From the NCBI RefSeq assembly GCF_900105685.1, contig NZ_LT629781.1, positions 434,001-498,000 on the forward strand: DNA of 64,000 nucleotides. The letters run 5' to 3'. This DNA is from Verrucomicrobium sp. GAS474 (GTDB taxonomy: Bacteria > Verrucomicrobiota > Verrucomicrobiia > Methylacidiphilales > GAS474). The notes under the pieces are model-generated. The model made no database searches and was not told the origin of the DNA. It saw only the letters and a program-made list of their open reading frames with translations. Position 1 is the stretch's first letter. Each line of letters opens with the position of its first letter. Shown here piece by piece: positions 45,664 through 64,000 of the stretch. The position numbers and the translations under genes are program-made.

Positions 45664-46671
45664 TCAGGCGATCGTCGCCATCATCTCCTCGTCGACCTGG
45701 CCGTGGAGGGGAGCCCCGACCAGGTACCGTTCGCACTCGTCGATCGCCATCGCGGCGAGGCGGCGGCATTCCCCGTCGACGGCCCCGGCGATGTGCGGGG
45801 TGAGGACGACGTTCGGGAGGGTGTAGAGCGGGGAGTCGGGGGCGGGCGGCTCGGGATGGGTGACGTCGAGGAGGGCGTGGAGGTCGGGACGGCGGTAGAG
45901 GACCTCGATCAGTTCCCGCTCGTTGACGATGGCGCCCCGCGCGGTGTTGATGAAGGCGGCGTCGGGCCGCATCCGCGCGAAGTGATGGCCCCGGATCATC
46001 CCGACGGTCTCCGGGAGGAGCGGGGTGTGGAGGGAGACGACGTGGGCGGTCTCGAAGAGTTCCTCCAGGGAGACCTTCCGGACGCCGAGGGCCTGCGCCG
46101 CGGCGTCGGAGAGGAACGGATCGTAGGCGATGACCTCGACGCGGAAGGGCCGCAGGAGCGGGATGAGGTGCCGCGCCACCGCGCCGACCGAAATCAGGCC
46201 GACGACGCTGTCGTAGATCCCGGGCATGGGATGGCGGACCGGCCGCCGCGCCGCCCGCATGTCGGCCACGTGCCGCCACGCGAGCTTCAGGCTGAGGAGG
46301 ATCTGGGCGAGGGTGAACTCGGCGACGGTGACGGCCAGGACGCTGTTCGCCGAGCTGACGACGATGCCCCGCGCCCAGAGGGCGTCGGTGACGAAGCCCT
46401 TCACGCTTCCCGCCGCGAAGAAGATCGCCTTGAGGTTCGGCGCGGCGGCGAGGAAGGCCTCGTCGCAGCGGGGCATCCCCCATCCGCCGAAGACGACCTC
46501 GGCCTCGGCCAGGGCCTGCGCCGAGGCGCCCCCGCGCTCCCGGAGCGAGACGGCGTCGTCCATCGGGCACGGCCCGGAAACGATTCCCTCCAGCCGCTTC
46601 CGCTCGGCCGGTCCGTAGACATTCCCCCAGTAAGGGCGGTCGAGCAGGATCAACGCGGCGGGCTTTCTCAT
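45664..46671 (-). CDS. D-isomer-specific 2-hydroxyacid dehydrogenase
   Basis: A 335-residue NAD-dependent dehydrogenase of the SerA/LdhA fold. Catalytic Arg is in INTARGAIVNE, Glu in DVTHPEPPAPDSPL and His in LTPHIAGAVDGE. The nucleotide loop reads VGLISVGAVARHL, where the first and third glycines of GxGxxG are Ser and Ala. That still suits the subfamily but could weaken NAD binding. The ATG at 46671 overlaps the GH92 stop by 4 bp (ATGA), so the two are coupled. The substrate is unknown; a sugar-derived hydroxyacid is a guess from context. Confidence 0.88.
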   Translation of the reverse strand: MRKPAALILLDRPYWGNVYGPAERKRLEGIVSGPCPMDDAVSLRERGGASAQALAEAEVVFGGWGMPRCDEAFLAAAPNLKAIFFAAGSVKGFVTDALWARGIVVSSANSVLAVTVAEFTLAQILLSLKLAWRHVADMRAARRPVRHPMPGIYDSVVGLISVGAVARHLIPLLRPFRVEVIAYDPFLSDAAAQALGVRKVSLEELFETAHVVSLHTPLLPETVGMIRGHHFARMRPDAAFINTARGAIVNERELIEVLYRRPDLHALLDVTHPEPPAPDSPLYTLPNVVLTPHIAGAVDGECRRLAAMAIDECERYLVGAPLHGQVDEEMMATIA

Positions 46672-48667: not shown

Positions 48668-50440
48668 TTAGGCAAGGGCGACGCGGCGGCGGCGGAAGGC
48701 GGCGGAGAACATCAGGAACACCGTCCCGCCGAGGAGGAGCGCCCAGGTGGCGGGCTCCGGCACGGCGGCGAGGTGGAGGATGACCTCGCCGGTGGTGCCG
48801 AAGTCGAGGCTCGAGGTGTAGCCCGTCAGGCCGGTGCTGGTGGCGAGGCTGAAGTTCGCGGCGCTCAGGCCCGCGTCGGTCAGGACGCCGTTCGAGTCAT
48901 AGGTCTGGAAGAGGACGTAGTCCCCCGCCTGCGCCCCGGAGAAGACGAAGGCGTTCGCGTTCAGCGTCAGGTCGTTCGAGGCGTAGTTCAGCATCACGAT
49001 CTTGTCGCTCGCATTCGAGGCGGCGAGATCGAAGACGAACTTCGCTCCCACCGCCATCGTCAGCACCGCACCGGTGGTGTTGCCGCCGTCGAAGGTGAGC
49101 GTCCCGACCGCGACCCCGTCGACGCCGCCCGGGGAGATGAAGTTGCCGGTCAGGACGTTGACGATGGCGCTCCCGCCGAGCGCGATGATGCCGGTGCCGC
49201 CGAGGGTCGAGCCACCGGCGGAGGCGAAGGTGACGTTGCCCGTGCCGAGGCCGCTCCCGGTCGTATTCGCCACCAGGATCGTTCCCGAGGCCGACTGGAA
49301 GACCGTGCCGCCGGTATAGGTGCTGGCCCCGCGCAGGATGACGGTCCCGGTGCCGCTCGCCGCCGTGCTGACGCCGGAGGCATTGTAATAGGAGGAGGTC
49401 CCCATCTTGGTCACCATGTTGGAATTAGCACCGAAGTCGGTGAAGCCGTTGGTGAAGGAGAGCGTGTTCCCCGCCGACACCCCGAGGCGCAGATACCCGG
49501 CCAACGTCTGGGAGGTCGCCGTCAGAGTTCCCGTGAACGAGAGGGTCGATGGGGAGCTCGCATAATTGCTGATCTGGGTCGATCCATAGATGAGCCCGCG
49601 ATTGGTGGTCTGGCTGGTCGCGCCGATGTAGTTAAAGGAGCTGCTGTTGCCGATACCGATCGTCGAGTTCGCCGCGCTCGCATTGCCGAGGCTCGAATTC
49701 ACGCCGGCGTTGCCGATCGAGGTGTAGGAAAGGGGGCCCCGGACCGCCGAATAGATGAAGGCCGCGTCGAAGCTGTTGTTATTGTTCGTGAGAACCAAAG
49801 GCATGCTCCCTCCATACGTCGACGTGGAGCCATACGTGGCGAAGGCAACGCCGATGCTCGCGCCGGAGCCGCCGCCGGTGATGAGGGAATTGATGACCAG
49901 CACCCCGACGGGCGACGCTGTAGCCGTCACGTTCGGATTCGACGCGTAGCCCATCGTATGAATCCCGTTGCTGAGATTCAGGATCAGGTCGCTGCCGAGG
50001 GTCGCGACCGAGCCCGCGGGGGAGGCCGCGGTGATGTTGCCCGTCAGATTGATCGTGACGTCCCCGAGCACGCCGTCGCCGGTGAGGGTCGGCTTCATCG
50101 TGGTGCTGGGGCTCGACGCCGAGGTCGAGCCGAAGGAGATGCCGCCAACGTCGTAGCTTCCCGCCGTCGCCGAGAGCGTGTTCGTCCCGCTCATGAGCCC
50201 GAAATCGAGGATCTGACTCGTCGAGAAGGCGGCGGAGCTCGTGTAATTGGAAAGGTTGCTCCAGACCCCGTTCCCCGTCCCGCCCGTGACGCCAGTCCCG
50301 TTCCAGGTCGCCGTCGTCGTCGCCACCCCGGTTTGCGGAGCCAGGAGCAGGGCCAAACCGCCAAAGGCCAGGGCGATTCCCCGGCGCAGTGCTGCAGCCC
50401 GGAAGAGGGGAGTGATGACGATGCGGGAGGTCGTTTTCAT
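48668..50440 (-). CDS. PEP-CTERM protein with autotransporter-associated beta-strand repeats (2)
   Basis: A 590-residue exported protein. A signal peptide (core GIALAFGGLALLLAPQTGVA) leads into Ser/Thr/Gly/Asn-rich beta-strand sequence with a PATR-like block (GASTYTGGTVFQSASGTILV). The sorting tail is VPEPATWALLLGG, then a hydrophobic stretch and RRRR. It shares a promoter architecture with PEP-CTERM gene 3 and heads an operon with GH92 and the dehydrogenase, only 8 bp downstream. Confidence 0.9.
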   Translation of the reverse strand: MKTTSRIVITPLFRAAALRRGIALAFGGLALLLAPQTGVATTTATWNGTGVTGGTGNGVWSNLSNYTSSAAFSTSQILDFGLMSGTNTLSATAGSYDVGGISFGSTSASSPSTTMKPTLTGDGVLGDVTINLTGNITAASPAGSVATLGSDLILNLSNGIHTMGYASNPNVTATASPVGVLVINSLITGGGSGASIGVAFATYGSTSTYGGSMPLVLTNNNNSFDAAFIYSAVRGPLSYTSIGNAGVNSSLGNASAANSTIGIGNSSSFNYIGATSQTTNRGLIYGSTQISNYASSPSTLSFTGTLTATSQTLAGYLRLGVSAGNTLSFTNGFTDFGANSNMVTKMGTSSYYNASGVSTAASGTGTVILRGASTYTGGTVFQSASGTILVANTTGSGLGTGNVTFASAGGSTLGGTGIIALGGSAIVNVLTGNFISPGGVDGVAVGTLTFDGGNTTGAVLTMAVGAKFVFDLAASNASDKIVMLNYASNDLTLNANAFVFSGAQAGDYVLFQTYDSNGVLTDAGLSAANFSLATSTGLTGYTSSLDFGTTGEVILHLAAVPEPATWALLLGGTVFLMFSAAFRRRRVALA

Positions 50441-50465
50441 AACAGGGGTTGCTTAAATCATGAAG

Positions 50466-50509
50466 CAAGCAATTTGATCCACAATCATCCCGCAATTCTT
50501 CCTATAGAA
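50466..50509 (-). promoter_or_regulatory. Conserved control region of PEP-CTERM gene 2
   Basis: On the coding strand, TTCTATAG (50509-50502) is followed after 16 nt by ATTGTGGATCAAATTGCTTG (50485-50466). Both elements and their spacing recur before PEP-CTERM gene 3. TTCTATAG starts 69 nt before the start codon. It could be a -10-like element or part of an operator (TTCTTC-CT-ATAGAA on the plus strand). Confidence 0.65.
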
Positions 50510-50556
50510 CGAATGCGCCCCCTGAGCACCCGGGTAGGTCCAAATGAAGGTTGTCG

Positions 50557-52890
50557 CTAACCGCGCACCGTGCCACAGGCGAGGAGACGGCGACGGGAAG
50601 CGACGGCGACAAACAGCGCCGACGCGAGGAGGAGAACCCAGGTGGCAGGCTCCGGCACGGCGGCGGCGACGATGAGATTGATCTGGCCGACGGTCGTGAA
50701 ATCGAGCGTGGCGGTGTACCCGTCGAGGCCGGTGCTCCCCGCGAGGTCGAAGTCGGAGGACTGGAAGTTGACCGAGGCAGCCGTCGACGTGTTGCTGCTG
50801 GAATAGAACTGGAAGAGGGTATAGGTCCCCGCCTGCGTCCCGCTGAAGTTGAAAGCGTTCGCCGAGAGGGAGAGATCGCCGCTGACGTAGCTAAAGAAGA
50901 CGATCTTGTCGCTCGTGCTCGAGGCACCGAGATCGAAGTTGAGCTTCGCGCCCGAGGCCAGCGTCACCACGTTTCCGGTCACCGCCGCCCCGGTGAAATT
51001 GAGGGTGCCGATCGAACCGGCGAGGCCGGGGGCGATCGCGCCGCCGCTGTTCACGATGACCTGGCCGCTGCCCAACGTCGTCGAAGGCGTGATAGTGCCG
51101 GTGCCGCCGAGAATGCCGGTGCTGTTCACCGTGACGAGACCCGTACCGGTGCCGCCGTTACTCGTGACGAGAAGGGTACCCGCGTTGATGGTGGTGGGGC
51201 CGTTATAGGTGTTGGCATTGCTGAGGATGAGAGCGCTCGTCAGGCTGTTCTGGACAACCCCCGTCACGTTCGTCTTGATCTGGCTGCTGATCGTGGTCGC
51301 ACCCGTTCCGGCTCCCGAATGGGTGACGATCCCGGTGTTGTTCACCGTGCCGGTCACCGAAGTCGTGCCGCCCGCCGCGCTGACCAGATTGAGGTTGCCG
51401 ATCTGGTTGAAGCCACCCGACATCAACGTGGCGCTCGTCGAATTGGTCGTCACGGTCACACTGCCCGTGCCGTTGATGGCGCCGCTTTCGGTCAGGTTGG
51501 TTGTCCCCGCATTCGTGACGTTGTTGATGAATTGAACGTCGCGACCATTCAGGTCGACTCCGCCGGTCAGGGTAAACGGCTGATTCGAGACGATCCCGTA
51601 GCTCGCGATGGTCAGCGCGCCGGTCGTGCCGCCCAGACTGATCTTATTCGTGAGGCTGGTCGTACCGAGATTCATGAGGGTCGCGGCGTTGGAGCCGGAA
51701 GAATCGCCCAGCGTGATCACGTTGGCGGAGGCCCCGAACGCGGAGGTGCCCCCGACGAGCAGCGTCCCCTTCTTCACCGTGACCGTTCCGACGAAGGCCG
51801 TGTTCTGGGCAGCACTGACGCCGTTGATATAGAGGGAAGAGGTGGCGCTGTCCTGGACGATGCCCGTCACGTTGGCCCCGAGGGCACTGTTGATGATCAC
51901 GCCGCCCTGCATATTCCCCGTAGTGATGACCGTGGTACTGCTGCCGTTATTCGTGATGGTCCCGGAGTTGTTGACGCCGCCCGTGAGGGAAACGTTGCCG
52001 GTCGCGCTCGAGTTATTGGCGATGACGAGGTCGTGGGCTCCGCTGATCGCGCCGCTGAAAGTCGCCGAGGCGCTCGTACCGCCGCTTGCCTGCCCCAGCG
52101 TGAGGGTGCCCGTGGTGGTGCCGAGGACGATGGCGTTGGCGATGGTGGCGTTGCTGTTGTTGGCGCCCATGAGCGCCGCCGAGCCGCTGCCGCCCGTACC
52201 GCCCAGAGAGATCGCCGTGGTCGTCGCCCCCGCCCCTCCCGACTTCAGCAGGACCGTCCCCGACTGGACCGCCAGCCCATCGGTGAAGGTATTCACCGCG
52301 AAGAGGGAAACCGTCCCCGCCGTGTTCACCTTCACGGCAGCGCCGCTGACGACGCCGTTGAGGACGATGCTCCCGGAGGCGTTCGTTCCGCCGAGCGTGA
52401 GGGTCTGGCCCGTGGCGACGGCGACCGTGCCGCTGAGGGTCAATGCCGAGGCATTGTTGACGAGGAAGCTCGAACTGTTATCGACAACCAGGTTCAGCTT
52501 ATTGCTGAAGGTCAGCCCAAAGTTGCCGCTGTTGTCGATCAGGATCGCCGTGTTGGCGAGGCCGTTGAGCGTCGCCGTACCGACCAGCTCGAAAGTCTGG
52601 ATCGCCGAGGGACTGATGGTGAGAGTCTGACCGAGGCCGTCAGCCAGCCAAAGCCCCTGCAGCGTCGTCGCGGCGGCGATCACCGGCTGATTCGTGAAGG
52701 TCGAGTTGAACTCGGCGCTGACCGTCGCCGAAGGAACGCCCGCCGACCAATTCCCGGACGTCGTCCAAGCCGTCGTCCCGCCATTCCAGACCGATTCCGC
52801 CGTGTCGGCCACGACCCCGCCGACACCTCCCAGGCAAAGGAGGACCGCCGCCCCGAGAAGGGAGCGAGAGAGGAGGGAGTGAGTTTTCAC
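50557..52890 (-). CDS. PEP-CTERM protein with autotransporter-associated beta-strand repeats (3)
   Basis: A 777-residue exported protein. A GTG start at 52890 is chosen because the next upstream possibility (TTG at 52920) lies inside a conserved control element and would add residues before the signal peptide. The signal peptide core is LLGAAVLLCLGGVGGVVA. The body is Thr/Ser/Asn/Gly-rich with PATR repeats such as NANTYNGPTTINAGTLLVTS. The tail VPEPATWVLLLAS plus SRRR is the PEP-CTERM signal. Divergent from the pilin-like cassette. Confidence 0.88.
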   Translation of the reverse strand: MKTHSLLSRSLLGAAVLLCLGGVGGVVADTAESVWNGGTTAWTTSGNWSAGVPSATVSAEFNSTFTNQPVIAAATTLQGLWLADGLGQTLTISPSAIQTFELVGTATLNGLANTAILIDNSGNFGLTFSNKLNLVVDNSSSFLVNNASALTLSGTVAVATGQTLTLGGTNASGSIVLNGVVSGAAVKVNTAGTVSLFAVNTFTDGLAVQSGTVLLKSGGAGATTTAISLGGTGGSGSAALMGANNSNATIANAIVLGTTTGTLTLGQASGGTSASATFSGAISGAHDLVIANNSSATGNVSLTGGVNNSGTITNNGSSTTVITTGNMQGGVIINSALGANVTGIVQDSATSSLYINGVSAAQNTAFVGTVTVKKGTLLVGGTSAFGASANVITLGDSSGSNAATLMNLGTTSLTNKISLGGTTGALTIASYGIVSNQPFTLTGGVDLNGRDVQFINNVTNAGTTNLTESGAINGTGSVTVTTNSTSATLMSGGFNQIGNLNLVSAAGGTTSVTGTVNNTGIVTHSGAGTGATTISSQIKTNVTGVVQNSLTSALILSNANTYNGPTTINAGTLLVTSNGGTGTGLVTVNSTGILGGTGTITPSTTLGSGQVIVNSGGAIAPGLAGSIGTLNFTGAAVTGNVVTLASGAKLNFDLGASSTSDKIVFFSYVSGDLSLSANAFNFSGTQAGTYTLFQFYSSSNTSTAASVNFQSSDFDLAGSTGLDGYTATLDFTTVGQINLIVAAAVPEPATWVLLLASALFVAVASRRRLLACGTVRG

Positions 52891-52917
52891 GCGCGTGGAT
52901 TTGCCTAAAGTTTGAAT

Positions 52918-52979
52918 CAAGCAATTTGTTTTACAATAACGTCGAAGTTCTCTCTATAGAATGGATTCTATAATGAGAA
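52918..52979. promoter_or_regulatory. Conserved control region between PEP-CTERM gene 3 and the pilin-like cassette
   Basis: Coding-strand (minus) order for PEP-CTERM gene 3: TTCTATAG (52961-52954), 16 nt, then ATTGTAAAACAAATTGCTTG (52937-52918), 17 of 20 identical to the element before gene 2. On the plus strand, TTCTCTCTATAGAA (52948-52961) and TTCTATAATGAGAA (52966-52979) are two similar 14-mers, the second containing a perfect TATAAT. The 214-bp divergent gap shows no gene. Confidence 0.6.
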
Positions 52980-53104
52980 TCTCAGAGAGATCGCTAAAGC
53001 TGGTTTGGGAGCAATTATTATGTTCGAGAGCGATGAAATCGGCTATTTGTAATACAGTAACAACCCGTGCGGCCTATTCTGGGGGGAATCAGGGAAGGCA
53101 CCTC

Positions 53105-53617
53105 ATGCAGACACTCTCTTCTCCTTCGCCCTCCTCTTCCCTGTTGTCCCCCATCTCCTCCCCCGCGTTCAGCCTCGTCGAAGTCCTCCTCGCGCTCGGC
53201 ATCTGCTCCTTCGTCCTCATCGCCCTCCTCGCCCTCTTCACCATCGGCCTCCACGACAGCCGGGAGTCGGGGGAAAAGATCGAGGCGGCCAACCTCGCCT
53301 CCCTCATCCTCTCCGCCCGGCGCGCCTCCCCCCTGGGGACCAACGGGACGATGGCGACCCTGGCGATCCCTCCCACGGCGCTCGCCCGCTCCTTCGGCGA
53401 CGCCTATGCCGGGGCCGACAAGTACGTCGCCCTCGACGGCACCCTCACCACCCCGGCGAAGGCCGCCTTCCGCATCCGGTGCAGCGCGGGGACGAACGCC
53501 GTGATGGGGGCCGACGTCGCCCTGGTCCACCTCTTCCTGAGCTGGCCCCCGCAGATGGCCCCCTCCCAACCCAACGTGAAGTCGTATGAATTCATCAGCG
53601 CCATCCCGCTCCGTTAG
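53105..53617 (+). CDS. Type IV pilin-like protein, Verru_Chthon cassette protein B type
   Basis: A 170-residue prepilin-like protein. The N-terminal cleavage/methylation motif is SPAFSLVEVLLALGICSFVL with the +5 Glu and hydrophobic helix. A short globular part with no cysteine pair suited to a minor pilin follows. The ATG at 53105 has GGGAAGG at a good distance and places the motif about 22 residues in, so longer readings are rejected. Its stop overlaps the next start by 32 bp. Order and sizes match the Verrucomicrobia-specific cassette. Confidence 0.8.
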   Translation: MQTLSSPSPSSSLLSPISSPAFSLVEVLLALGICSFVLIALLALFTIGLHDSRESGEKIEAANLASLILSARRASPLGTNGTMATLAIPPTALARSFGDAYAGADKYVALDGTLTTPAKAAFRIRCSAGTNAVMGADVALVHLFLSWPPQMAPSQPNVKSYEFISAIPLR

Positions 53618-54398
53618 CCTCCGCCGTTCCGCCCGGCGCGGCGGCTTCACCCTCGTCGAGGTCCTCGTCGCCATCACCGTCCTGACGCTGATCACCACCC
53701 TGCTGACGCAGATGATGGGGACGGCGCAGAAGGTCTCCAACGTCGTCCAGCAGCGGATCAACAACTTCACGAAGGCCCGCGCCCTGCTCGACCTCCTGGC
53801 GCGCGACCTCTCCGCGGGGCTCTACCGGAGCGACCTCGCCGTCTACCCCGCCGGAAGCCAGACAACGATCGCCTTCTACACCCTTCGCCCCGGGGCCAGC
53901 TCCGCCGCCACGCGGAACCTCGCCCTCGTCCAGTACTCCATCGACGCGACCTCGACCGACAGCATCCTGAAGCGGAGCGACCTCTCGATCGGCTGGGGCT
54001 CCCAGGCGAAGGACGTCTCCTTCGGCGACGCCACGCTCACGAACCTCGCCCGCGTCACGCCGAGCGATACCGCGAGCGGCGTCGTCGGCCTCCAGATCCG
54101 CTTCGTGATGGCCGACGGGACGACGCAGTCGACCTACGCGAACACCGTCGACAATCCTCTCCGCGCCATCGGCGTCACCCTCGCCGTCGTCGACGACGAG
54201 AGCCTCAAGCGGATGACCCCGGCGGAACTCCTCTCCCTGCGCGGGACGCTTGCCTCCGCCGCCCCCGCGAACTATACCGTGAAGGAAGCCTGGCAGAAGT
54301 CCCTCGACGGCTCCTTTGATTGGGCCGCCTATCCCGCCTCCCTCCGCAACGGCCTCCAGATCTTCGAACGCTTCGTCTATGTCTCTCCCGTCTTCTGA
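53586..54398 (+). CDS. Type IV pilin-like protein, Verru_Chthon cassette protein C type
   Basis: A 270-residue pseudopilin-like protein. The prepilin motif is RRGGFTLVEVLVAITVLTLI near residues 18-37, followed by a long coiled segment (MGTAQKVSNVVQQRINNFTK) and a beta-rich C-terminal domain resembling GspJ/PulJ in size. The start lies 32 bp inside the previous gene and its end overlaps the next gene by 20 bp. This tight packing suggests coupled translation and a joint structure. Confidence 0.8.
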   Translation: MNSSAPSRSVSLRRSARRGGFTLVEVLVAITVLTLITTLLTQMMGTAQKVSNVVQQRINNFTKARALLDLLARDLSAGLYRSDLAVYPAGSQTTIAFYTLRPGASSAATRNLALVQYSIDATSTDSILKRSDLSIGWGSQAKDVSFGDATLTNLARVTPSDTASGVVGLQIRFVMADGTTQSTYANTVDNPLRAIGVTLAVVDDESLKRMTPAELLSLRGTLASAAPANYTVKEAWQKSLDGSFDWAAYPASLRNGLQIFERFVYVSPVF

Positions 54399-57300
54399 CC
54401 GCCGTCCCTCCCTTCCGCCACGGGGGGAACGGAGCATGGCGCTGCTGGTCACCCTCTTCCTCATCGCGATCCTCTCGCTGATGCTCGTCGCGCTCGTCAG
54501 CCGGACCAGCCTCGACCACCAGGCGAGCGCCAACTACACGAAATCGCTCGGCGCCGAGCAGATCGGGATCGCCGGGCTCGAGATGGTGATCTCCCAGCTC
54601 CGCCAAGAGATGAGCAAGGACCAGCTCCCCGACCTCACCTACCCCGCCAAGCCTCTTTACACGAACGTCACCGCCGCCAACCTCTCTCCCCAGGCCCTCG
54701 GGACGAACAGCGCGATGCCGCTCCTCGTCAAGATCAGCACCAACGCCCCGTTCTTTACCGGGACGCGGACGAAGGGAACCCTCGTCGCCTCGACGATCAG
54801 CACGGCGACGGCCTCCCTCAACGGCCGCTCCCTCGGCATCACCCGCTGGAACGATCCCTACCTCGGCACGTTCCCCTCGACGAAGGCCCTTCCCTCCTGG
54901 GTCATCGTCACCCGCGGCGGTCCCTCCGACGGGACGAAGGCCCTCTTCGGCCCCGCCGGCGAGACGATCAACAACAGCGCCATCTCCAACACGAACTACG
55001 CCGTCGGCCGCTTCGCCTACGCCGTCTACGACACCAGCGGCCTCCTCGACATCACCATCGCCGGTTATCCCACCAACCTCGTTTCCGCGATCCAGGCCGT
55101 GGCGCTGAAGGGGACCCTGGCCGGGGCCGACGTCTCCGCCCTCGGGATCGACCCGAAGAAATTGACCACCTGGCGCAACGCCGCCTCCGCCGCCTCGGCC
55201 ACCTCCTACCTCACCTACGTCACGAACTTCGCCTCGACGAACGGCTTCCTGAGCGTCGCCAACGGGGACACCACCTTCCTCAGCCGCCAGGACCTCATCC
55301 AGGCCGCGCAGAAGGGAACCGCCGGGCTGACGACCGCCGCCCTCACGAACCTCACCGTCTTCAGCCGGGAACGGAATTCCCCCACGTGGCGCCCGCAAAA
55401 TCCGCCCGGCATCACTCCCTCCGTCAACTACACCACCCTCGGAACCGTCGCCACCTCGACCAACGTCTTCCCCCCCCTCGTCCGCTACACCACGACGAAT
55501 ACCATCACCAGCTACCGGATCAGCGGCTCCGGCTCCTCCAAATACACCTATCCCGTCAAGGCGGGCGACCCCCTCCTCTACACCCGTTTCCCCCTCGACC
55601 GCATCCGCTGGATCACCTCCTCCGGCCCCGCCGCCGGGGCGACCGACGAGGCGATCCAGGCCTGTTTCGGCCTGAAGTGGGACACCGCGCGCGGGCTGTG
55701 GCAATACGTCGGTTCGACCCTTCCCTACGCCTCCTCCCCTGCGGAACAATCGTCGATCAAGACTCTCGCCCAGGTCGCCGCCGAGACGAAACCCCGCGAG
55801 GCGAATTTCTTCGAGCTCCTCCAGGCGGGGATCCTCACCGGCTCCCTCGGCAGCGAGCTCCATCTCACCCCGCCCCTCACCGGTAGCGTCAACGGATTCA
55901 ACGCCAATACCTTCCACGAGAGTTCCTCCCTCCTTCACATTTTCCGGATCGGCGCCTCGATCCTCACCCAATACCAGCCCGACGCCTGCCCGGTCGTCGT
56001 CGAATACGTCCAGCCGAGCATCAAGATCGGCAGCACCACTTATCCCGCCGCCGGCAAGAGCCTCATCCCGTGGCAGGCATCGGGCATCGCCAACCTCCCC
56101 TACCTCAACATGATGACCGTCCTGGGCGGAACCAGCCCGGACAATGCCGCCAACATGGCCATCTACATGGTGTTCGGCCTTTGGAACCCCCATCAGGGGA
56201 CGGGGACCGTGACCTCGACGAATCGTCCCCCCATCCGTCTGCGCTCCATCGGCACCGTTTCCGTCTGCGATTTCTACGGCGGGTTTTCCCCCGGCGGCTA
56301 TTCGACGGTCCCCCAAAGCACCTCCGTCAACGCTGGCGCCATTCCGGGCTATACCCATACGCTCAACACCACGAACCTCCTCTCCACCGCGGGTGCCAAC
56401 GGGGTGAACGGCTTCGTCGATCCCCATGCGATCGCGCCGAACGACATGTCGGTCTCCGCTCCGGTCAGCACTCCCGCCGGCTCCTCCTGGGCCACATTCA
56501 TGGCCCCCGGCAACGTCACCTACGGCGGTTACCGTCTCCCCGACTTCAAGCTCAGCGCGACCTATGCGAGCAGCAACTTCTGGACTAACAGCCTTACCAT
56601 CTCCGGCAGCGGCACTTCCGCCATCACCAATTCCTCCTATACCAGCTCGATGAATTTCTGGGCCAACAACGACCCCGTCAACAACCCCTTCAACGTCTGG
56701 CTCGAGTACCAGAACCCGAAGGGCGTCTGGGTCCCCTACAACTACCTCAACGGGATCAACGACACCAACACCTGGATGGCGAAGACGCCCGGCTTCACCT
56801 TCGCGGGACTCGGCAGGCTCAACCCGAGCAACTCCATCGCCACTCCCGTCTCCATTTCCGAAACCACCGCGACCGATCCCGGAAACAACTACTACTACAA
56901 ATGCTTCTGGGAAGTACCCGATCCCCGCTCCCTCCGCTACAACTACACCCAATCCCAGTCCGCCGGCACGTCGGTCTGGCCGACCCATCTCAACGGCTCT
57001 TACTGGTCCTCGTCGACCGATAGCGCCAGCCAGACCCTGGGATGGATCGGAGCCCAGATCGCCCAGATCTACTTCGGCCCCTCGTGGGTCCCCGCTTCCC
57101 TGGCGCGAAACAACAATCAGGCCAACTTCGTCCGCGCCGTCGCCACCAGCGCCGCCGCCTACAAGGATCCCGACGGCGTCGCGCGGATCGCCGACAGCGG
57201 CCTCTTCGGCCTCACCACCCCGGCGACGGCGAACAACTGGGCGGGCGATCCCTACGCCTCCTCCAGCCTCGTCGTCCAGCGGGGCGTCTCCGACCGGCCG

Positions 57301-57915
57301 GTGATCCTGAACCGCCCCTTCGCCAGCGTCGGCGAGCTCGGCTACGTGAATCGCGATTACCCCTGGCGGACCCTCGACCTCTTCACCACGAACAGCGCCG
57401 ACGCGGGCCTTCTCGACCTCTTCACCGTCAGCCAGTCGAGCGACTCCGTCGCACGGGGCCGCGTGAACCCGAACCGCGCCCCGGCTCCCGTCATCGAGGC
57501 CATTCTGCGGGGGACGATCTCCGGCGTCGCCACCACGAACGCCCTCTCCAAACCCTCGACCATCGCCGGAAGCCTGACGAATTTCACCGCGACGGCGGCG
57601 AACACCCTTCTTGGCCGGGACCAGATCGCGACCCGCTTCGTCGCGGGCCTCAACGCGGCGAACTTCGCCACGACCGACGAGGCGAATGTGAAGGCCCTGC
57701 GCGAGAGCGTGACCCGCTCCCTCGCCGACGTCGCCCAGACCCGGACGTGGAATCTCCTCATCGACGTCACCGCCCAGGCAGGCCGCTACCCCCCGACGGC
57801 AACACGCCTCGACCAGTTCCAGGTCGAGGGGGAACACCGGTTCTGGCTCCATATCGCGATCGATCGGTATACGGGGGAGATTATTGATCAGCAGATTGAG
57901 CGGGTGAGTCAGTAG
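54379..57915 (+). CDS. Large pilus-like surface protein, Verru_Chthon cassette protein A type
   Basis: A 1178-residue protein. The N-terminus (residues 1-45) carries a basic Pro-rich stretch and one hydrophobic helix MALLVTLFLIAILSLMLVAL, like PilX/GspK proteins. A very long Ser/Thr/Asn-rich body of unknown fold follows, typical of Verru_Chthon cassette protein A. The C-terminus (RYPPTATRLDQFQVEGEHRF then IDQQIERVSQ) is well formed, so it is not truncated. The ATG at 54379 overlaps the previous gene. Role unknown; an extracellular fibre or secretion apparatus is the usual guess. Repeat R5 begins about 10 bp after the stop. Confidence 0.82.
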   Translation: MSLPSSDRRPSLPPRGERSMALLVTLFLIAILSLMLVALVSRTSLDHQASANYTKSLGAEQIGIAGLEMVISQLRQEMSKDQLPDLTYPAKPLYTNVTAANLSPQALGTNSAMPLLVKISTNAPFFTGTRTKGTLVASTISTATASLNGRSLGITRWNDPYLGTFPSTKALPSWVIVTRGGPSDGTKALFGPAGETINNSAISNTNYAVGRFAYAVYDTSGLLDITIAGYPTNLVSAIQAVALKGTLAGADVSALGIDPKKLTTWRNAASAASATSYLTYVTNFASTNGFLSVANGDTTFLSRQDLIQAAQKGTAGLTTAALTNLTVFSRERNSPTWRPQNPPGITPSVNYTTLGTVATSTNVFPPLVRYTTTNTITSYRISGSGSSKYTYPVKAGDPLLYTRFPLDRIRWITSSGPAAGATDEAIQACFGLKWDTARGLWQYVGSTLPYASSPAEQSSIKTLAQVAAETKPREANFFELLQAGILTGSLGSELHLTPPLTGSVNGFNANTFHESSSLLHIFRIGASILTQYQPDACPVVVEYVQPSIKIGSTTYPAAGKSLIPWQASGIANLPYLNMMTVLGGTSPDNAANMAIYMVFGLWNPHQGTGTVTSTNRPPIRLRSIGTVSVCDFYGGFSPGGYSTVPQSTSVNAGAIPGYTHTLNTTNLLSTAGANGVNGFVDPHAIAPNDMSVSAPVSTPAGSSWATFMAPGNVTYGGYRLPDFKLSATYASSNFWTNSLTISGSGTSAITNSSYTSSMNFWANNDPVNNPFNVWLEYQNPKGVWVPYNYLNGINDTNTWMAKTPGFTFAGLGRLNPSNSIATPVSISETTATDPGNNYYYKCFWEVPDPRSLRYNYTQSQSAGTSVWPTHLNGSYWSSSTDSASQTLGWIGAQIAQIYFGPSWVPASLARNNNQANFVRAVATSAAAYKDPDGVARIADSGLFGLTTPATANNWAGDPYASSSLVVQRGVSDRPVILNRPFASVGELGYVNRDYPWRTLDLFTTNSADAGLLDLFTVSQSSDSVARGRVNPNRAPAPVIEAILRGTISGVATTNALSKPSTIAGSLTNFTATAANTLLGRDQIATRFVAGLNAANFATTDEANVKALRESVTRSLADVAQTRTWNLLIDVTAQAGRYPPTATRLDQFQVEGEHRFWLHIAIDRYTGEIIDQQIERVSQ

Positions 57916-57924
57916 GGGGGGGCG

Positions 57925-58512
57925 GGTTGGGGAGTGCCCTTTGGGGCTGGCGCGGTCGACCCTGTACAGCTGGAGGCGATCCGCTTTATAGCCCAAGAGG
58001 GGCTTCGCCCCTCCTGGAACCTCCTGTTCTGAGGGCCTGAACTAGGCGGACGCGCTTTGGCGGCGCCTCGTCTCCTCACTGGATTAAAATCGGATGGTTT
58101 CAGTACGCCCGAGGGTACGTACTGAAGGGGGAGCGGTACCAATACACCCAGATTCCTATCGGGAGGGAAGCGTGTGGGAGAGAGGTCTTCAGGGGTTTCA
58201 GCACCGAGGAGATGAGATTGCTCATTGGATGCTCCTTCCCATGGCTCGGCCCTCAAGGAGGTTAGATCCAGCGGAGTAGAGTGAGCCTATGGAAGATAGG
58301 CCTTTAGGATTACGCCCCATCTACACCAAGGCCCATCAGACAGGAGGGTCCGGAGGGGCGACTGCCGTCGCGCTAGCGACACTCGTTCCTCAGGGGAGAC
58401 TAACTTGCAGGGCCGGGAGGCAACCCCTCCGTTCGTTCAAACGCGCGTCCGGCATCCACCTGTACAGGGCCATGTACCCGGTCCCGAAGGGCTGCCCCTC
58501 CCCCGCGACCCC
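57925..58512. repeat. Dispersed intergenic repeat, composite copy R5
   Basis: This fills the 597-bp gap between convergent stops (57915 and 58513). Both ends are inverted copies of the terminal unit (GGTCGACCCTGTACAGCTGG on the left, CACCTGTACAGGGCCATGTA on the right). The middle holds the R2-type core (58197-58341) and one 61-bp module (58363-58423), joining features of R1/R4 and R2. A perfect hairpin GAGGGGC-TTC-GCCCCTC is at 57997-58013. About 160 bp (58020-58185) is unique to this copy. No gene is seen. Confidence 0.88.
58099..58126. other. Perfect 9-bp inverted repeat in the unique part of R5
   Basis: TTCAGTACG (58099-58107), a 10-nt loop, then CGTACTGAA (58118-58126). There is no U-tract, so it is not a standard terminator. 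It may be a structural element of the repeat. Confidence 0.6.
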
Positions 58513-60426
58513 TTATCTCCCCGCCACCACCGGCACGATTTTCACCGTTAGCGTCGCCTGCGTTGCGGGGGCCTGGAGGTCGATACCCAGCCGATGCAGC
58601 TTCCCGGCGCGGCCTTCGTCCTTCAGGGTCTCGTTCGTCACGGTGAAGGGGAGGTCGGAGGTGATCTCGATCCGGACGGTCTCGCCTTCGCGGGTGACGG
58701 TCCAGACGCCGGGCTTTTCCTCGGTCGGGATTCCGTAGGTGACGACGGCGGTGCCGAAGTCCTGCGGGGAGGCGAATTCGACATGGTCGGCCACCGTCAG
58801 GGAGGTGCCGCCGCTCCGGACGTAATCGAAACGGCGGGTCAGGGTCTTGAGCGCCGGAACGGCGTAGCCCTTGGTGATGTCGAGGGTGACGCTGTCGGCG
58901 TCGTCGCCGAATTCCTTCGCCACCACCGCGGCCGCGTGGGCCGCCCCTTCCTTCTGCAGCTGCCCGGCCACCTTCGGCACGTCGTGGCCGTAGGAGTTGT
59001 TGAGCGCGATCTCGTACCGCTTCGAGCTGAAGGTCCGCCCGTCGTAGACCATGCTGCCGGGATCGACGAGGATCGGCTCCTTGGCGAGGACGAGGGTGTA
59101 GGTGCCGAGGTCGTCGTGGCCGTGGCTCGTCCCGTTGTTCCCGCCCTTGCACGAGAAGGAAAGGCCGGGCTGCCCCTCGGGCGGCCGTCCGACGAGGATC
59201 TGGCTGTCGCCGAACCAATCGCGGAGGCGGCGGCCCCGCAGGACGTCGTCGCCGGTCGAAAGCGGGGGGGCCGCCTCGTCGAAGGCGAGGTTGATTCCCC
59301 ACGCATAGAGGAAGGTGCAGAACATCCCGTCGAGCTGGAGGCTGGGGACGGTGTTGTCGCCGAAGCCGTAGCGGTGGTCGATGATATGGAAGAGCCAGAG
59401 GCTCGGCTGCTCCATGAACATGGAGTCCGAATAGGCGGGCCAGACGTTCGTGATCATCTCGAAGCGGCGGGGGAACTGGGCGACGAGGCGGATGTTGTCG
59501 CGGGAGTAAACGGAGACCTTCCCGTGAGTCGCCGAGAGGATCGCCTCGGCGAGGAGGACGTAGTGGCCGAAGCCGTACTTCCAATAGCCCATCCCCTCGA
59601 GGGAGTAGCCGTCGGCAGGGAACCCGGCGATGTAGAACTGGGTCTCCTTCTCGGCGGCGGCGATGATCTGGGCCCGTTCCTCGACCGAATCGTCGAGGGC
59701 AAGGGCCGAGCCGACGATGCCGCCGTGGACGACGGCGCTCCAGTTGTTCTGGTTGTTCGCCCACCACTCGATCGGCTTTTTCCCCTGGATGCTGTCGAGG
59801 TAGGGGGCGATCACCCGCTGCCGCACGAGGTCGCGGATCGTCTTGCGGAGGTCGGGCGAGAGGCGGTCCCCCAGCATCGCGTCGGCGGTGGCGAGGTTCC
59901 ACGAGGTCATCGCGGTGCCGAGGTCGTTGAATTTCGTGAACTTCGCGTGGCCGGAGAGGATCCAGCTGGTCTCGGAGCAGATCGCGGCCAGCTCCTTCTC
60001 GATCGCGGGGACGAAGCGGCCCTGGTTTTCCATCCCCTCGGCGAGGACGAGGTTCGCCAGGCGGAAGCGGCGCTGGGTGACGGCGTTGTCGATCTTGCGG
60101 TCGCCGCTCTGCGCCGACGCGGCGTAGAGGGCGGAGGTCACCTCGGGGACCGGCTCGGTCAGGTAACGGACCGCGAGGGCGGTGATCCGGGCGCGGAACG
60201 CCGCATCGGCACCGAGCGCCTCCCACGCCTTCCGGTCCTCGATCGCGGGGCCGACCCCCTTGGCGACGGGATCGAGGAAACCGGCGATCTCCTTGGCCCG
60301 CGCGGGATCGAAGACGGGGGGACCCGCCGGGGCCGCCTCCTGGGCCGCCGCTCCCGCGGGGAGCAACGAGGCAACGGAGAGGGAGAGGGCCGCCGCGCGA
60401 GCGAGGCCCAACGTCAAGAAACGCAT
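58513..60426 (-). CDS. Heparinase II/III-like polysaccharide lyase
   Basis: A 637-residue exported protein. A signal peptide (LARAAALSLSVASLLPAGAA) is followed by a helical toroid-type domain (about 30-340) with NNQNNWSAVVHGGIVGSALA and GYSLEGMGYWKYGFGHYV. A Hepar_II_III beta-sandwich domain begins SFSCKGGNNGTSHGHDDLGT and continues with ILVDPGSMVYDGR. Family members cleave uronate-containing polysaccharides (heparin, alginate, ulvan types) by beta-elimination; the polysaccharide here is unknown. Third gene of the minus-strand group after the CE7 and CBM-like genes. Confidence 0.88.
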   Translation of the reverse strand: MRFLTLGLARAAALSLSVASLLPAGAAAQEAAPAGPPVFDPARAKEIAGFLDPVAKGVGPAIEDRKAWEALGADAAFRARITALAVRYLTEPVPEVTSALYAASAQSGDRKIDNAVTQRRFRLANLVLAEGMENQGRFVPAIEKELAAICSETSWILSGHAKFTKFNDLGTAMTSWNLATADAMLGDRLSPDLRKTIRDLVRQRVIAPYLDSIQGKKPIEWWANNQNNWSAVVHGGIVGSALALDDSVEERAQIIAAAEKETQFYIAGFPADGYSLEGMGYWKYGFGHYVLLAEAILSATHGKVSVYSRDNIRLVAQFPRRFEMITNVWPAYSDSMFMEQPSLWLFHIIDHRYGFGDNTVPSLQLDGMFCTFLYAWGINLAFDEAAPPLSTGDDVLRGRRLRDWFGDSQILVGRPPEGQPGLSFSCKGGNNGTSHGHDDLGTYTLVLAKEPILVDPGSMVYDGRTFSSKRYEIALNNSYGHDVPKVAGQLQKEGAAHAAAVVAKEFGDDADSVTLDITKGYAVPALKTLTRRFDYVRSGGTSLTVADHVEFASPQDFGTAVVTYGIPTEEKPGVWTVTREGETVRIEITSDLPFTVTNETLKDEGRAGKLHRLGIDLQAPATQATLTVKIVPVVAGR

Positions 60427-60448
60427 GGGGTGGGAGGGAGCCCGGAAC

Positions 60449-61024
60449 TTAGGGATTCAGGACGACGGAGAAGTCGTCGAAGTCGGCCAGGGTCGAACGC
60501 TTGGAGAAGCAGTGGACGGCGAGGTTCAGCGAGGTCGTGTCGGCCGGCACCGTGACGTCGAAGAAATACTGGGTCCACGTCGTCGCCGAGGACGGGACGA
60601 GGGAGGTGAAGGCCTCGGCCGAGGGCGGCTTGATCACCTTGCCCGACGCGTCGAAGATGTTCACCCAGACGCCGATCCCGCTGTCCTCGACGCACCGGGC
60701 CCAATAGGAGATGCGGTAGCGCTTCCCGCCCTCGACCGGGATCTTGTCGCACTGCGCCCACGAGCCCGGCCCGCCCGTCGCCTGCTTCACCCGGAGCCCG
60801 GACTTGCCCGTGTGGGCCGCGTCGGGGCTGACCTGGCTGAGGCCCTGCGCCTCGTCGTCCTTCGCGAACGTCCAGTTTTCCTTGCCCGACTCGAAGCCCG
60901 CGTTGGGGAAGGGGACGGCACCGGCGGGGGCGGGAGGCGCGTCATCGGCGCGGGCGGGGAGGGGCAAGGCGGGGAACAGCAGGACACCGGCGAGGAGGAG
61001 GAGGGACGAGGCGCGTGAGTTCAT
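60449..61024 (-). CDS. Exported carbohydrate-binding-module-like protein
   Basis: A 191-residue protein with a signal peptide (SSLLLLAGVLLFPALPLPARA) and one jelly-roll-like domain: NAGFESGKENWTFAKDDEAQ, HTGKSGLRVKQATGG, GGKRYRISYWARC, and DTTSLNLAVHCFSKRSTLAD. This resembles CBM4/9-type modules, but no catalytic domain is attached. It may be a stand-alone binding protein that helps the lyase (22 bp downstream). Assignment rests on fold-like pattern only. Confidence 0.7.
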   Translation of the reverse strand: MNSRASSLLLLAGVLLFPALPLPARADDAPPAPAGAVPFPNAGFESGKENWTFAKDDEAQGLSQVSPDAAHTGKSGLRVKQATGGPGSWAQCDKIPVEGGKRYRISYWARCVEDSGIGVWVNIFDASGKVIKPPSAEAFTSLVPSSATTWTQYFFDVTVPADTTSLNLAVHCFSKRSTLADFDDFSVVLNP

Positions 61025-61084
61025 TGGGGTGGAAGGGCGGGGGTTGGGTTGAAATGAGGGAGCGGGAGCGGAAGATCGGGGCGA

Positions 61085-62443
61085 TCAGGGGGTCTTGGCC
61101 TGCTCGGCGATGTGGGCGAGGGTCAGCTTCTTCGAGTCGTTCCAGATCTGCGGCCCGATGTCGTGTCCGTTCTCGACGTGGTTCACGATCTCCTTCTTTC
61201 CGGCCAGGTTGTTGTAGGCGAGGTAGCCGCAGGTCGGAGGGCAGATGACGTCGAGGAAGCCGACCTCGACGTGGGCCGGGATCTTGATCCGGGTGGCGAA
61301 GTTCGACGTGTCGAAGTAGCGCATCGCCTCGGTGACCTTCGGGTCGTATTGGCCGTCGGCCCCTTTCGGGACGATCTTCGGCCAGCCCGCGATGCGGCCC
61401 GCGAGGAAGCCCGAGTGGTCGGAGAGGCCGGGGACGAAGGCGATCATGTAGGTGACGCGGGGCTCGAGCGCCGCCGCGGCGAAGGCGAGGCCGCCGCCCT
61501 GGCTGCCGCCGATGAGGATCAGGGTCTTCCCGTCCCACTCGGGCTGCTCCATCAGGAACTGGAGCGCGCGGAGGCTCCGGTAGTGGACGCCGAGGAAGTA
61601 GTAGGTGTCCCGCGAGTCGCGGCCGCGGACGCGGTAGTCCTTCAGCTCCCCGCCGTCGAGGCCGCCGTAGAAGGCGCCGGGCTGGCCGTTCGGGATGCCG
61701 TGGGCGTTGATGTCGGCGACGAGCATGCCATTCCCGTTCTTCGCCCAGCCGGCGACGCCGTCGAGGTTCGCGCTGCGGACGCCGGCCCCGGGGACGAAGA
61801 GGAGGGCGGGAAGGCTCTTCGGCGCGGCCCCGATCGGGCGGCCGTAGAAGCCCATGACGGGGTTGCCGATGCTGTCGGCCTGGAACTCGAAGGTCTCGAC
61901 GCCGGAACGGTTCGCCGGGGGCGGGACGGGGGTCAGCTTCGTGTTCATCGGGACCGCCGCCAGCTCCTTCTTCTTCGCGTCCCAGAAGGCGTCGAAGTCG
62001 TCGGGGACGGGGAGGCTCGGCTTGATCAGCGTCGGGTCGATCCCGCCCGCCGAGATCGCAGTGAGGAGGCCCTTGTCGCTCTTGAACTTCGCCTCGCAAT
62101 GGAGGAAGCCGGGCTCGCTCATCGTCCCGGTGATCGAGGCCTTGCCGTCGTGGACCGTCGCCGTCCCGTGGTCGAGGGGCGGGAGGACGCCGTCCTTCGT
62201 CAGCGTCCACTCGACGGCCCCCTCGGCGACCGGCTGCTGGTTCGTCAGGAGGGAGATATTGAAGGTGACCGTCTCCCCCTGGTGGTAGAGGGCGTCGGGC
62301 CGGTCGGCGGTCACCGTCAGCACCGTCTCGGCAGGGGTCTTCCCGTCGGAGGACGAGGCGGCGACGACATCTGTGGAGTATCCGATTTCCATGGCGAGGG
62401 CGAGGAGAGGGGTGAGGAGGAGGCGCAGGATGCGGCGTTTCAT
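61085..62443 (-). CDS. Exported acetylxylan esterase-like hydrolase (CE7/AXE1)
   Basis: A 452-residue protein. A signal peptide (MKRRILRLLLTPLLALAM) and a beta-rich N-terminal extension (about 40-130) precede an alpha/beta hydrolase of the AXE1/CE7 type. The nucleophile elbow is GGSQGGGLAF, Asp is likely in HVEVGFLDVICPPT and His in NGHDIGPQI. The oxyanion-side RGRDSRDTYYFLG replaces the usual RGQ. CE7 enzymes deacetylate sugars. The ATG at 62443 fits the signal peptide; a GTG 24 bp upstream is possible. A CTATAG box starts 68 nt before this start. Confidence 0.86.
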   Translation of the reverse strand: MKRRILRLLLTPLLALAMEIGYSTDVVAASSSDGKTPAETVLTVTADRPDALYHQGETVTFNISLLTNQQPVAEGAVEWTLTKDGVLPPLDHGTATVHDGKASITGTMSEPGFLHCEAKFKSDKGLLTAISAGGIDPTLIKPSLPVPDDFDAFWDAKKKELAAVPMNTKLTPVPPPANRSGVETFEFQADSIGNPVMGFYGRPIGAAPKSLPALLFVPGAGVRSANLDGVAGWAKNGNGMLVADINAHGIPNGQPGAFYGGLDGGELKDYRVRGRDSRDTYYFLGVHYRSLRALQFLMEQPEWDGKTLILIGGSQGGGLAFAAAALEPRVTYMIAFVPGLSDHSGFLAGRIAGWPKIVPKGADGQYDPKVTEAMRYFDTSNFATRIKIPAHVEVGFLDVICPPTCGYLAYNNLAGKKEIVNHVENGHDIGPQIWNDSKKLTLAHIAEQAKTP

Positions 62444-62497
62444 GTTTACAGGGATTCTTCTTATCACTGGGCTTCGATGCGAGCAAAGGCGACGAAA

Positions 62498-62511
62498 TTC
62501 ATACTATAGAA
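62498..62511 (-). promoter_or_regulatory. CTATAG-box site before the CE7 operon
   Basis: TTCATA-CT-ATAGAA (plus strand); on the coding strand it reads TTCTATAGTATGAA. TTCTATAG starts 68 nt before the CE7 start codon. Matches the sites before PEP-CTERM genes 2 and 3. Confidence 0.55.
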
Positions 62512-62560
62512 TACCCCTCTCCCCGCCCTGCGGCGCGGAGACCGCCGCCACCGCTATTCG

Positions 62561-63691
62561 CTATTTCGCCGCGACCCGTCGCCGTGTCGGCTTCGGCTTG
62601 GGCGAGATCGCCTCCTCCGCCTTGGGCTCGGGCGTCGGATTCGGCTTGGGCAGCGACATCAGGTCCTTCTTCGGGAGAACGGTCGCCCCGTCGATCCACG
62701 TGCCGTCGATCAGGAGCTGGCTGCGGGTCTCGGGGATGCCCCGCTCGTTGCGATGGATCATCCCGATGAGGAAGTCGACGGCGGCGCGGCCGATGAGAAG
62801 GTCGTTCTGGCAGACCCCGGCGAGGCTACCGTCGGTGGAGGCCAGGCTGAGGGAAGCCCAGCCGCAGGTCTCGGGACCGACGCCGAGCAGGGCGAAATAG
62901 TCGGCGACCGGCGGGTAATGGTAGATGACGACCTCGGGCTTGTACCGCTGGTACCATTTCTTGAACTGCGGCAATTCGTCGACCCGCGGCCCATCGTCGA
63001 GGATCAGCATCGGGACCTGGTCCTCGGGCCGGAAGCGGCGCTGCTCGGAGAGGAAGCCGGAGGAGAAATTCTGGTCGGTCCGCTCGTCGTTGACGCGGGT
63101 GGTGACGAAGGCGATCCGCCGGTAGCCGTGGGCGCGGAGGGCGCGGACCGCGATCCGGGCGGAGCGGTACTGCGCGTTGCTCACCAGATGAAGCCGCGGC
63201 CGGGAGAGGGTGTAGCCGAAGCAGACCGCCGAGAAGTTCTCCCAATCGAAGTTGATGTGGGCGCGGCTGAACGACTGGGGCGGGATGATGAGGCCCTGGA
63301 TGTTGCGGGCCTTCAGGATCTTCGAGAGCCGTCCGCTGCTGAGTTCCGAGAGGCGGAATTCCTCCATCTGGTATCCCAGCTCGGCGCACCGCTCCTCGCC
63401 TCCCTTGCGGTATTCCTTGAAGCCGCTCCACGGCTGACCCTTGCGGAAGACGGGGCCGATCCAGGCCAGCGTCCCCTGGTGGCGGACCCGCTTGATCCGC
63501 TCCCGGTAGATCGTGAGGGCGGAGAGCATCGGATCGGGCCGGTACCCCATCTCCTCGGCGATGGAGCGGATCCGCTGCCGCGTCGCCTCGGGAAGGCGGG
63601 GACTGTCGCGCAGGGCGAGGGAAACCGTCGTGATATGGACACCGGCCCGCTGCGCGATATCGCGCTGTCCGACATAGCCCGGAAGGATCAT
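62561..63691 (-). CDS. LacI-family regulator of the lyase/esterase cluster
   Basis: A 376-residue regulator. The N-terminal HTH is QRDIAQRAGVHITTVSLALR, with a hinge up to MGYRPDPMLSALTIY, then a periplasmic-binding-type sensor domain. The C-terminal block GRAAVDFLIGMIHRNERGIP is followed by TRSQLLIDGTWIDGATVLPK. A Lys/Pro-rich tail of about 35 residues is unusual. The ATG at 63691 places the HTH at residues 9-28. A perfect 6-2-6 palindrome (63692-63705) directly precedes the start, suggesting autoregulation. Divergent from an MFS gene. Confidence 0.9.
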   Translation of the reverse strand: MILPGYVGQRDIAQRAGVHITTVSLALRDSPRLPEATRQRIRSIAEEMGYRPDPMLSALTIYRERIKRVRHQGTLAWIGPVFRKGQPWSGFKEYRKGGEERCAELGYQMEEFRLSELSSGRLSKILKARNIQGLIIPPQSFSRAHINFDWENFSAVCFGYTLSRPRLHLVSNAQYRSARIAVRALRAHGYRRIAFVTTRVNDERTDQNFSSGFLSEQRRFRPEDQVPMLILDDGPRVDELPQFKKWYQRYKPEVVIYHYPPVADYFALLGVGPETCGWASLSLASTDGSLAGVCQNDLLIGRAAVDFLIGMIHRNERGIPETRSQLLIDGTWIDGATVLPKKDLMSLPKPNPTPEPKAEEAISPKPKPTRRRVAAK

Positions 63692-63705
63692 TTCTATAGA
63701 TAGAA
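63692..63705. promoter_or_regulatory. Palindrome abutting the LacI-type start
   Basis: TTCTAT-AG-ATAGAA is a perfect 6-2-6 inverted repeat adjacent to the start codon of the regulator. It is the most symmetric member of the CTATAG-box set and so the best operator candidate. Confidence 0.65.
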
Positions 63706-63775
63706 CGCGCCCCCTCAAAAGCGATTCCAAAAAGCCTCCCGCTTCTCGAAAACCGCACCTGATGGGAACGCAATA

Positions 63776-63785
63776 AACTATAGTT
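63776..63785 (+). promoter_or_regulatory. CTATAG-box site before the MFS gene
   Basis: AACTATAGTT, a 10-bp palindrome starting 65 nt before the MFS start at 63841, the same distance range (65-71 nt) as the CTATAG boxes before three other genes. Confidence 0.5.
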
Positions 63786-63840
63786 AGAGCATACTCGACG
63801 TTGGTTCCAGCCTTCCCTTCTGGAAAAATGGTTCCCATTC

Positions 63841-64000
63841 ATGAGTCTTCCCCTCACCGAAACCCCGGCGACCCCCTCCGCCGCCGCGCCGCATAAAATC
63901 TGGACCGTCGGCACCCTCACCTACACCTCGGCCGGGCTCGTCGCCCTCTTCTGCTGGCTCCTGTGGGGGGATTTCGCCTGGTCGATGCGGGACCGCTCGA
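63841..64000 (+). CDS. MFS transporter, N-terminal part (cut by window edge)
   Basis: The 53 visible residues contain WTVGTLTYTSAGLVALFCWL then LWGDFAWSMRDRS, the first membrane segment of a family of MFS transporters frequent in Verrucomicrobiota saccharide clusters. It is divergent from the LacI-type regulator of the lyase/esterase genes and probably imports the released sugars or uronates (inference). The ATG at 63841 begins shortly before the first membrane segment. Confidence 0.75.
   Translation, partial: MSLPLTETPATPSAAAPHKIWTVGTLTYTSAGLVALFCWLLWGDFAWSMRDRS

Follow-up and report, generated by a model that had tools for sequence, protein, structure and literature searches.

Predicted LacI-family operators joining PEP-CTERM, pseudopilin and polysaccharide-breakdown genes in a cluster of Verrucomicrobium sp. 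GAS474

Are the CTATAG boxes that recur before PEP-CTERM and polysaccharide-breakdown genes of Verrucomicrobium sp. GAS474 a promoter element or the sites of a regulator? We studied a stretch of 64,000 nucleotides (nt), hereafter the window, which corresponds to positions 434001-498000 of the single-contig genome (3,763,444 bp) of this strain, an isolate from forest soil that is in culture (PMC5786674). Genes were called with a codon-usage model trained on the window, and genes and proteins were named with Pfam and NCBIfam profiles. A first-pass annotation had described CTATAG at a fixed distance before four genes of separate clusters, and had offered two readings: the operator of the adjacent LacI-type regulator, tying surface proteins to polysaccharide breakdown, or a -10-like element of a special sigma factor. 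Our results suggest that the boxes are very probably operators of a local LacI-family regulon, read by two paralogous regulators, LacI1 and LacI2, and subject to autoregulated repression.

CTATAG occurred in the window at 50502, 52954, 62504, 63694 and 63778. The boxes and their distances were as described: the first base of TTCTATAG lay 69 nt before the start of the PEP-CTERM gene PEP2 (ATG at 50440), 71 nt before that of PEP3 (GTG at 52890) and 68 nt before that of a CE7-type esterase gene (ATG at 62443), and the start of the transporter gene MFS1 (ATG at 63842) was 64 nt from CTATAG, or 66 nt from the AA before it. The perfect palindrome TTCTAT-AG-ATAGAA was also present at 63692-63705, adjoining the ATG of lacI1 (63691), and was the sole exact copy in the genome. 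CTATAG alone was only modestly enriched (five in the window vs 1.46 expected; 2 of 100 shuffles reached five). Genome-wide it had 64 copies, and 5 of the 14 copies of TTCTATAG fell inside genes; CTATAG as a genome-wide promoter class was rejected on these counts.

Comparison of the sites showed that CTATAG belongs to a longer, overlapping unit, the 14-bp inverted repeat TTCTA-N4-TAGAA, which was far above chance. With at most one mismatch the repeat had 15 copies in the whole genome, eight of them inside 31 kb (484496-515393, from window position 50496 to about 17 kb past the window), where the density outside predicted 0.06 (Poisson P about 3e-15). All eight were intergenic (Markov-resampled intergenic sequence averaged 0.10 copies and never exceeded 2), and they precede three PEP-CTERM genes, two pseudopilin cassettes, an MFS gene and two lacI genes; four of the seven copies elsewhere lay inside predicted genes. 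The pattern with two mismatches was uninformative genome-wide (655 sites vs 1525 in the control). Counting the weaker copies before the CE7 operon and MFS1, there were ten sites in all rather than five, among them one at 52966..52979 that the first-pass annotation had not listed, and the supposedly separate clusters are really one, running about 18 kb beyond the window end. Counted from the site's first base, the likely start codon followed at about 50-75 nt in most cases, at 14 nt for lacI1, whose site touches it, and at 139 or 157 nt for cassette 1; given this spread, the "fixed distance" amounts to a loose promoter-proximal placement. Two lone intergenic copies with one mismatch, at G000:C1:598201-598214 before a nucleoside-hydrolase-like gene and at G000:C1:97873-97886 between SDR and AraC-type genes (G000 is this genome), may be chance occurrences or distant targets.

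The proposal of an operator was strongly supported by this clustering and by the recognition helix of the LacI proteins, although its unit is the inverted repeat, not CTATAG, and the adjacent regulator has a paralogue. The genome encodes 13 LacI-family proteins, and a helix of the type [IVF]TL was found only in LacI1 (ITL) and LacI2 (VTL), both within the 31-kb stretch; I20, T21 and L25 of LacI1 aligned with positions 17, 18 and 22 of E. coli LacI. LacI2 is encoded 9.4 kb downstream of LacI1, is 50-53% identical to it, and has equivalent DNA-contacting residues and a site of its own. A candidate C-terminal sugar-binding, periplasmic-binding-like domain of LacI1 (PF13377) scored 25.2 bits, just under the cut-off of 26.5 (E 2e-5), and in its hinge helix L59 aligned with L56 of LacI, with Leu in place of Ala53. 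Among the regions upstream of 99 LacI genes, taken from relatives as well as from GAS474, the full operator (at most one mismatch) stood before the regulator's own gene in 8 of 14 [IVF]TL proteins vs 0 of 85 other LacIs. With LacI1 and LacI2 removed (97 LacIs) the counts were 6/12 vs 0/85 (Fisher P 9e-7; P values from the LacI sets overstate independence, since these proteins are related by descent). When every five-base inverted repeat with spacers of 0-8 was enumerated blindly, TTCTA-N4 ranked first in the [IVF]TL class (6/12), the maximum for any repeat over 100 shuffles being 3. Proteins with S at residue 18 had TCAA-N4-TTGA in 7/13 cases vs 0/31 others, and those with R at residue 22 had TGCTA-N4-TAGCA in 3/9, all of them TR. 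Subgroups differ in the outer two bases, as distant VTL proteins carried CTAAC(A/T)(A/T)TAGAC. Across Verrucomicrobiota, the arms seem to be predictable from residues 18 and 22 (TL: CTA, SL: CAA, TR: TGC), with no central CG; examples of this match between helix and arms are L052, L114, L135, L149 and L246, and L025, L136 and L047.

The sites recurred near relatives of LacI1, with expected counts of 0.02-0.28 in those loci: five in 17 kb in UBA695 (62% identical), six in 19 kb in G102 (two tandem LacIs, 61 and 60%), eight in 18 kb in G387 (52%), four exact ones in 17 kb in Cerasicoccus frondis (40%) and three in 7 kb in G003 (about 40%). LR76 had one perfect site immediately before its CE7 gene, and the site of the UBA695 CE7 orthologue was also perfect. 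The genes behind the relatives' sites encode PEP-CTERM proteins, CE7 esterases, heparinase-like proteins, MFS transporters, 2-hydroxyacid dehydrogenases and LacIs. Sites in UBA695 stand before heparinase-like/MFS, lacI, GH16/CE7 and PEP-CTERM genes, and PEP-CTERM-type genes followed sites twice in G102 and once in G387 (PEP motif and Arg-rich tail judged by eye). An operator at the lacI start was found in the same position in GAS474, the UBA695 orthologue and the Cerasicoccus homologue. CTATAG itself was part of 4/5 sites in UBA695 and of 5/10 in GAS474; in five other genomes, where both palindrome arms were kept, it was part of 0/22, and this absence separates an operator from a sigma-factor element.

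From these patterns we infer an effector, and further that both LacIs bind the sites physically and with equal affinity and that they repress instead of activating. Dimers of LacI1 and of LacI2, which probably share operators, would bind TTCTA-N4-TAGAA near the transcription start. When the inducer is absent, they would block polymerase at the PEP-CTERM genes, the two pseudopilin cassettes, the CE7/CBM/heparinase-like operon, the two MFS genes and lacI1/lacI2. A sugar or oligosaccharide freed from the target polysaccharide would then bind the C-terminal domain of the LacIs, releasing the operators and inducing the whole set; presumably the source of this inducer is the polysaccharide on which the CE7, GH92, GH16, heparinase-like and deacetylase-like enzymes act. 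The promoter-proximal placement and the site at the lacI start codon would fit repression with autoregulation, which 72% of the LacI-family regulators in one survey were reported to have (PMC4052901).

Several points weigh against the LacI regulon. The central CG that LacI-family operators typically have was present in 0/37 sites, vs 1173 of 1251 even palindromes in the RegPrecise LacI-family regulons (exceptions reported; PMC4052901); we suppose that its lack is linked to the hinge Leu that replaces Ala53 of E. coli LacI. In a second set of 69 further LacIs drawn phylum-wide the full 14-mer was weak (3/19 [IVF]TL vs 1/50 others, P 0.06), and only the core CTA-N4-TAG generalised (11/19 vs 1/50, P 4e-7), a test picked after the weak 14-mer result; the core itself had been noticed earlier. 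The CE7 and MFS1 sites are two and three mismatches off the pattern, and no good site was found upstream of the lacI1 orthologues' own starts in LR76 and G039. Finally, the shared PEP-CTERM leaders and the duplication of the two cassettes make the sites of this genome partly dependent on one another.

This last point is the ground for considering the sites a mere relic of duplication, promoters copied along with their genes and of no regulatory meaning. PEP2, PEP3 and PEP4 do have a common leader and appear to be in part one duplicated unit, the two cassettes are homologues, and LacI1 and LacI2 are alike to the degree given above; nevertheless, the same arms, with differing flanks and centres, stand upstream of unrelated genes both in GAS474 and in five or more other genomes, which makes a relic hardly credible. 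A different transcription factor could bind the palindrome with both LacIs as bystanders, and lone sites such as the one at 97873, beside an AraC-type regulator gene, would agree with it. We consider such a factor highly improbable, since in other species the blind search found this motif upstream of the genes that encode LacIs sharing the helix, and the arms are different where the helix is different.

For the special sigma factor, the fixed distance would be a uniform 5' leader. Coding-strand TATAG(T/A/G) resembles TATAAT at sites mostly about 50-75 nt before the start codon, and TATAGC also lies within UBA695 sites. But the lacI1 site touches its ATG, the arms rather than CTATAG are kept in most other genera and follow the LacI recognition helix, and the genome-wide counts of CTATAG and TTCTATAG given above speak against a promoter class; no conserved -35 partner was seen in the site alignments, judged by eye and without a formal test. 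A special sigma factor is therefore very unlikely. A milder version, in which the operator lies over an ordinary sigma-70 -10 element, with TATAG read by RNA polymerase and the arms by LacI, is possible though somewhat doubtful. Repressors commonly work from operators over the -10 element, and on the coding strand site 52966 contains TATAAT and four further sites contain TATAG(T/A/G), whereas TATGCT (PEP4 and cassette 2), AATGCT (MFS2) and TAACCA (lacI2) occupy that position elsewhere. Such an overlap is compatible with the LacI regulon and would refine it.

Table 1. Features of the cluster. Positions refer to the window unless marked as extended coordinates or given in locus L046, which overlaps window 63500-64000 and continues the cluster past the window end.
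Feature	Position	Strand	Remarks
2-hydroxyacid dehydrogenase	45664-46563		beyond the GH92 gene, further downstream of PEP2
GH92 enzyme	46668-48659		8 nt after PEP2
PEP-CTERM protein 2 (PEP2)	48668..50440	-
PEP2 putative operator	50496..50509	-	coding strand TTCTATAGGAAGAA; 69 nt before start; 1 mismatch
PEP-CTERM protein 3 (PEP3)	50557..52890	-	PATR repeat
PEP3/cassette 1 putative operator 1	52948..52961	-	TTCTATAGAGAGAA; 71 nt before PEP3 GTG; 1 mismatch
PEP3/cassette 1 putative operator 2	52966..52979	+	TTCTATAATGAGAA; 139 nt before the first gene of the cassette; 1 mismatch
Pseudopilin cassette 1, three genes	53105..57915	+	resembles Verru_Chthon cassette proteins B, C, A; below curated cut-offs
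Heparinase II/III-like protein, operon gene 3	58513..60426	-
CBM_4_9 protein, operon gene 2	60449..61024	-
CE7-type esterase (AXE1), operon gene 1	61085..62443	-
CE7 operon putative operator	62498..62511	-	TTCTATAGTATGAA; 68 nt before start; 2 mismatches
LacI1	62561..63691	-	LacI family; N-terminal helix-turn-helix, Pfam LacI PF00356 46.4 bits, cut-off 27
lacI1 putative operator, perfect	63692..63705	-	coding strand TTCTATCTATAGAA; abuts start codon; presumed autoregulatory
MFS1 degenerate putative operator	63776..63789	+	AACTATAGTTAGAG; core CTA-N4-TAG intact, 3 outer mismatches
MFS sugar-type transporter 1 (MFS1)	63842..64000, on to extended 65232	+
PEP-CTERM 4 (PEP4) site	extended 69870 = G000:C1:503870		beyond the window
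Site between 2-hydroxyacid dehydrogenase and LacI2	extended 73050 = G000:C1:507050
MFS2 site	extended 74190 = G000:C1:508190
Pseudopilin cassette 2	L046:13059-17821		homologue of cassette 1
Cassette 2 site	extended 81380 = G000:C1:515380

The genome had 29 PEP-CTERM matches, and the operator stood before 3/29, all in this cluster (Table 1), which ruled it out as a general PEP-CTERM element. The leader of the three operator-bearing genes has AATTGCTT about 22-23 nt after the operator (window 50440-50496 and 52890-52948; L046:6322-6370). The 11-mer leader word CAAATTGCTTG was dropped as a common element, its exact copies being found at PEP2 and PEP3 only. GATGGGAAC and GTTCCCAT (window 63759-63770 and 63829-63841) are the arms, about 70 nt from each other, of an inverted repeat that flanks the MFS1 operator and ends at the start codon; it is possibly a second regulatory element or a hairpin. 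The word GGCTATAAAGCGGAT, with 52 genome copies vs 0 in the control, belongs to an interspersed repeat family, and two of its copies lie downstream of the pseudopilin cassettes (window 57979-57993, negative strand; L046:12979-12993, positive strand).

The cassettes share with the Verru_Chthon cassette (TIGR02598, TIGR02599, TIGR02600) the tandem pseudopilin-like genes and similarity to models A, B and C over their N-terminal parts. Every match was under its curated cut-off (32.6 vs 51.4, 39.9 vs 256.5 and 31.1 vs 332.3 bits), so they are called only Verru_Chthon-like; as the matches are N-terminal only and below cut-off, the cassettes may be a new branch of their own. Those models are silent on regulation.

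Among known systems, the closest likeness is with the local LacI-family regulons of RegPrecise (PMC4052901): an even palindrome mostly about 140-30 bp from the starts, autoregulation, and targets around the regulator that include carbohydrate-enzyme and transporter genes. Besides the central CG, they differ in a conserved unit of 16-22 bp, vs 14 bp here, and in that the targets here include PEP-CTERM proteins and pseudopilins; the text of PMC4052901 does not name Verrucomicrobiota. The proteobacterial control of PEP-CTERM genes by sigma-54, PrsK and PrsR (PMC1569441) also has a common upstream element, at a mean of 71 nt from the start codon. That element is of the -24/-12 kind and its regulator is different, whereas here a palindrome is borne by only the three PEP-CTERM matches mentioned above. 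The same paper states that further regulators are still to be found within and outside Proteobacteria. Our literature search, made in papers available without subscription, found none on LacI operators in Verrucomicrobiota, and no described regulation or trigger of PEP-CTERM proteins or Verru_Chthon-type pseudopilins in Verrucomicrobiota was found in the literature.

The kind of control proposed here, a LacI-type local regulon, is familiar; this case in a soil bacterium is new and testable. We lean, with some reserve, towards a Verrucomicrobiota LacI subfamily with a distinct hinge (PDPxLxAL), operators lacking the central CG and arms readable from residues 18 and 22 (TL: TTCTA; SL: TTCAA; TR: TGCTA), one branch of which would couple PEP-CTERM surface display and pseudopilin cassettes to the uptake and breakdown of a specific polysaccharide. 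Outside Proteobacteria it would, if true, be a first regulator for the cargo of PEP-CTERM sorting. Verrucomicrobiota commonly have PEP-CTERM proteins and Verru_Chthon-type pseudopilins; since one putative operator joins them here to a polysaccharide-degradation locus, they are predicted to be produced during growth on that polysaccharide, and therefore to have a role in binding or handling it. GAS474 is cultured, so these predictions can be tested, and the short DNA code could map carbohydrate regulons across a dominant, poorly studied soil phylum.

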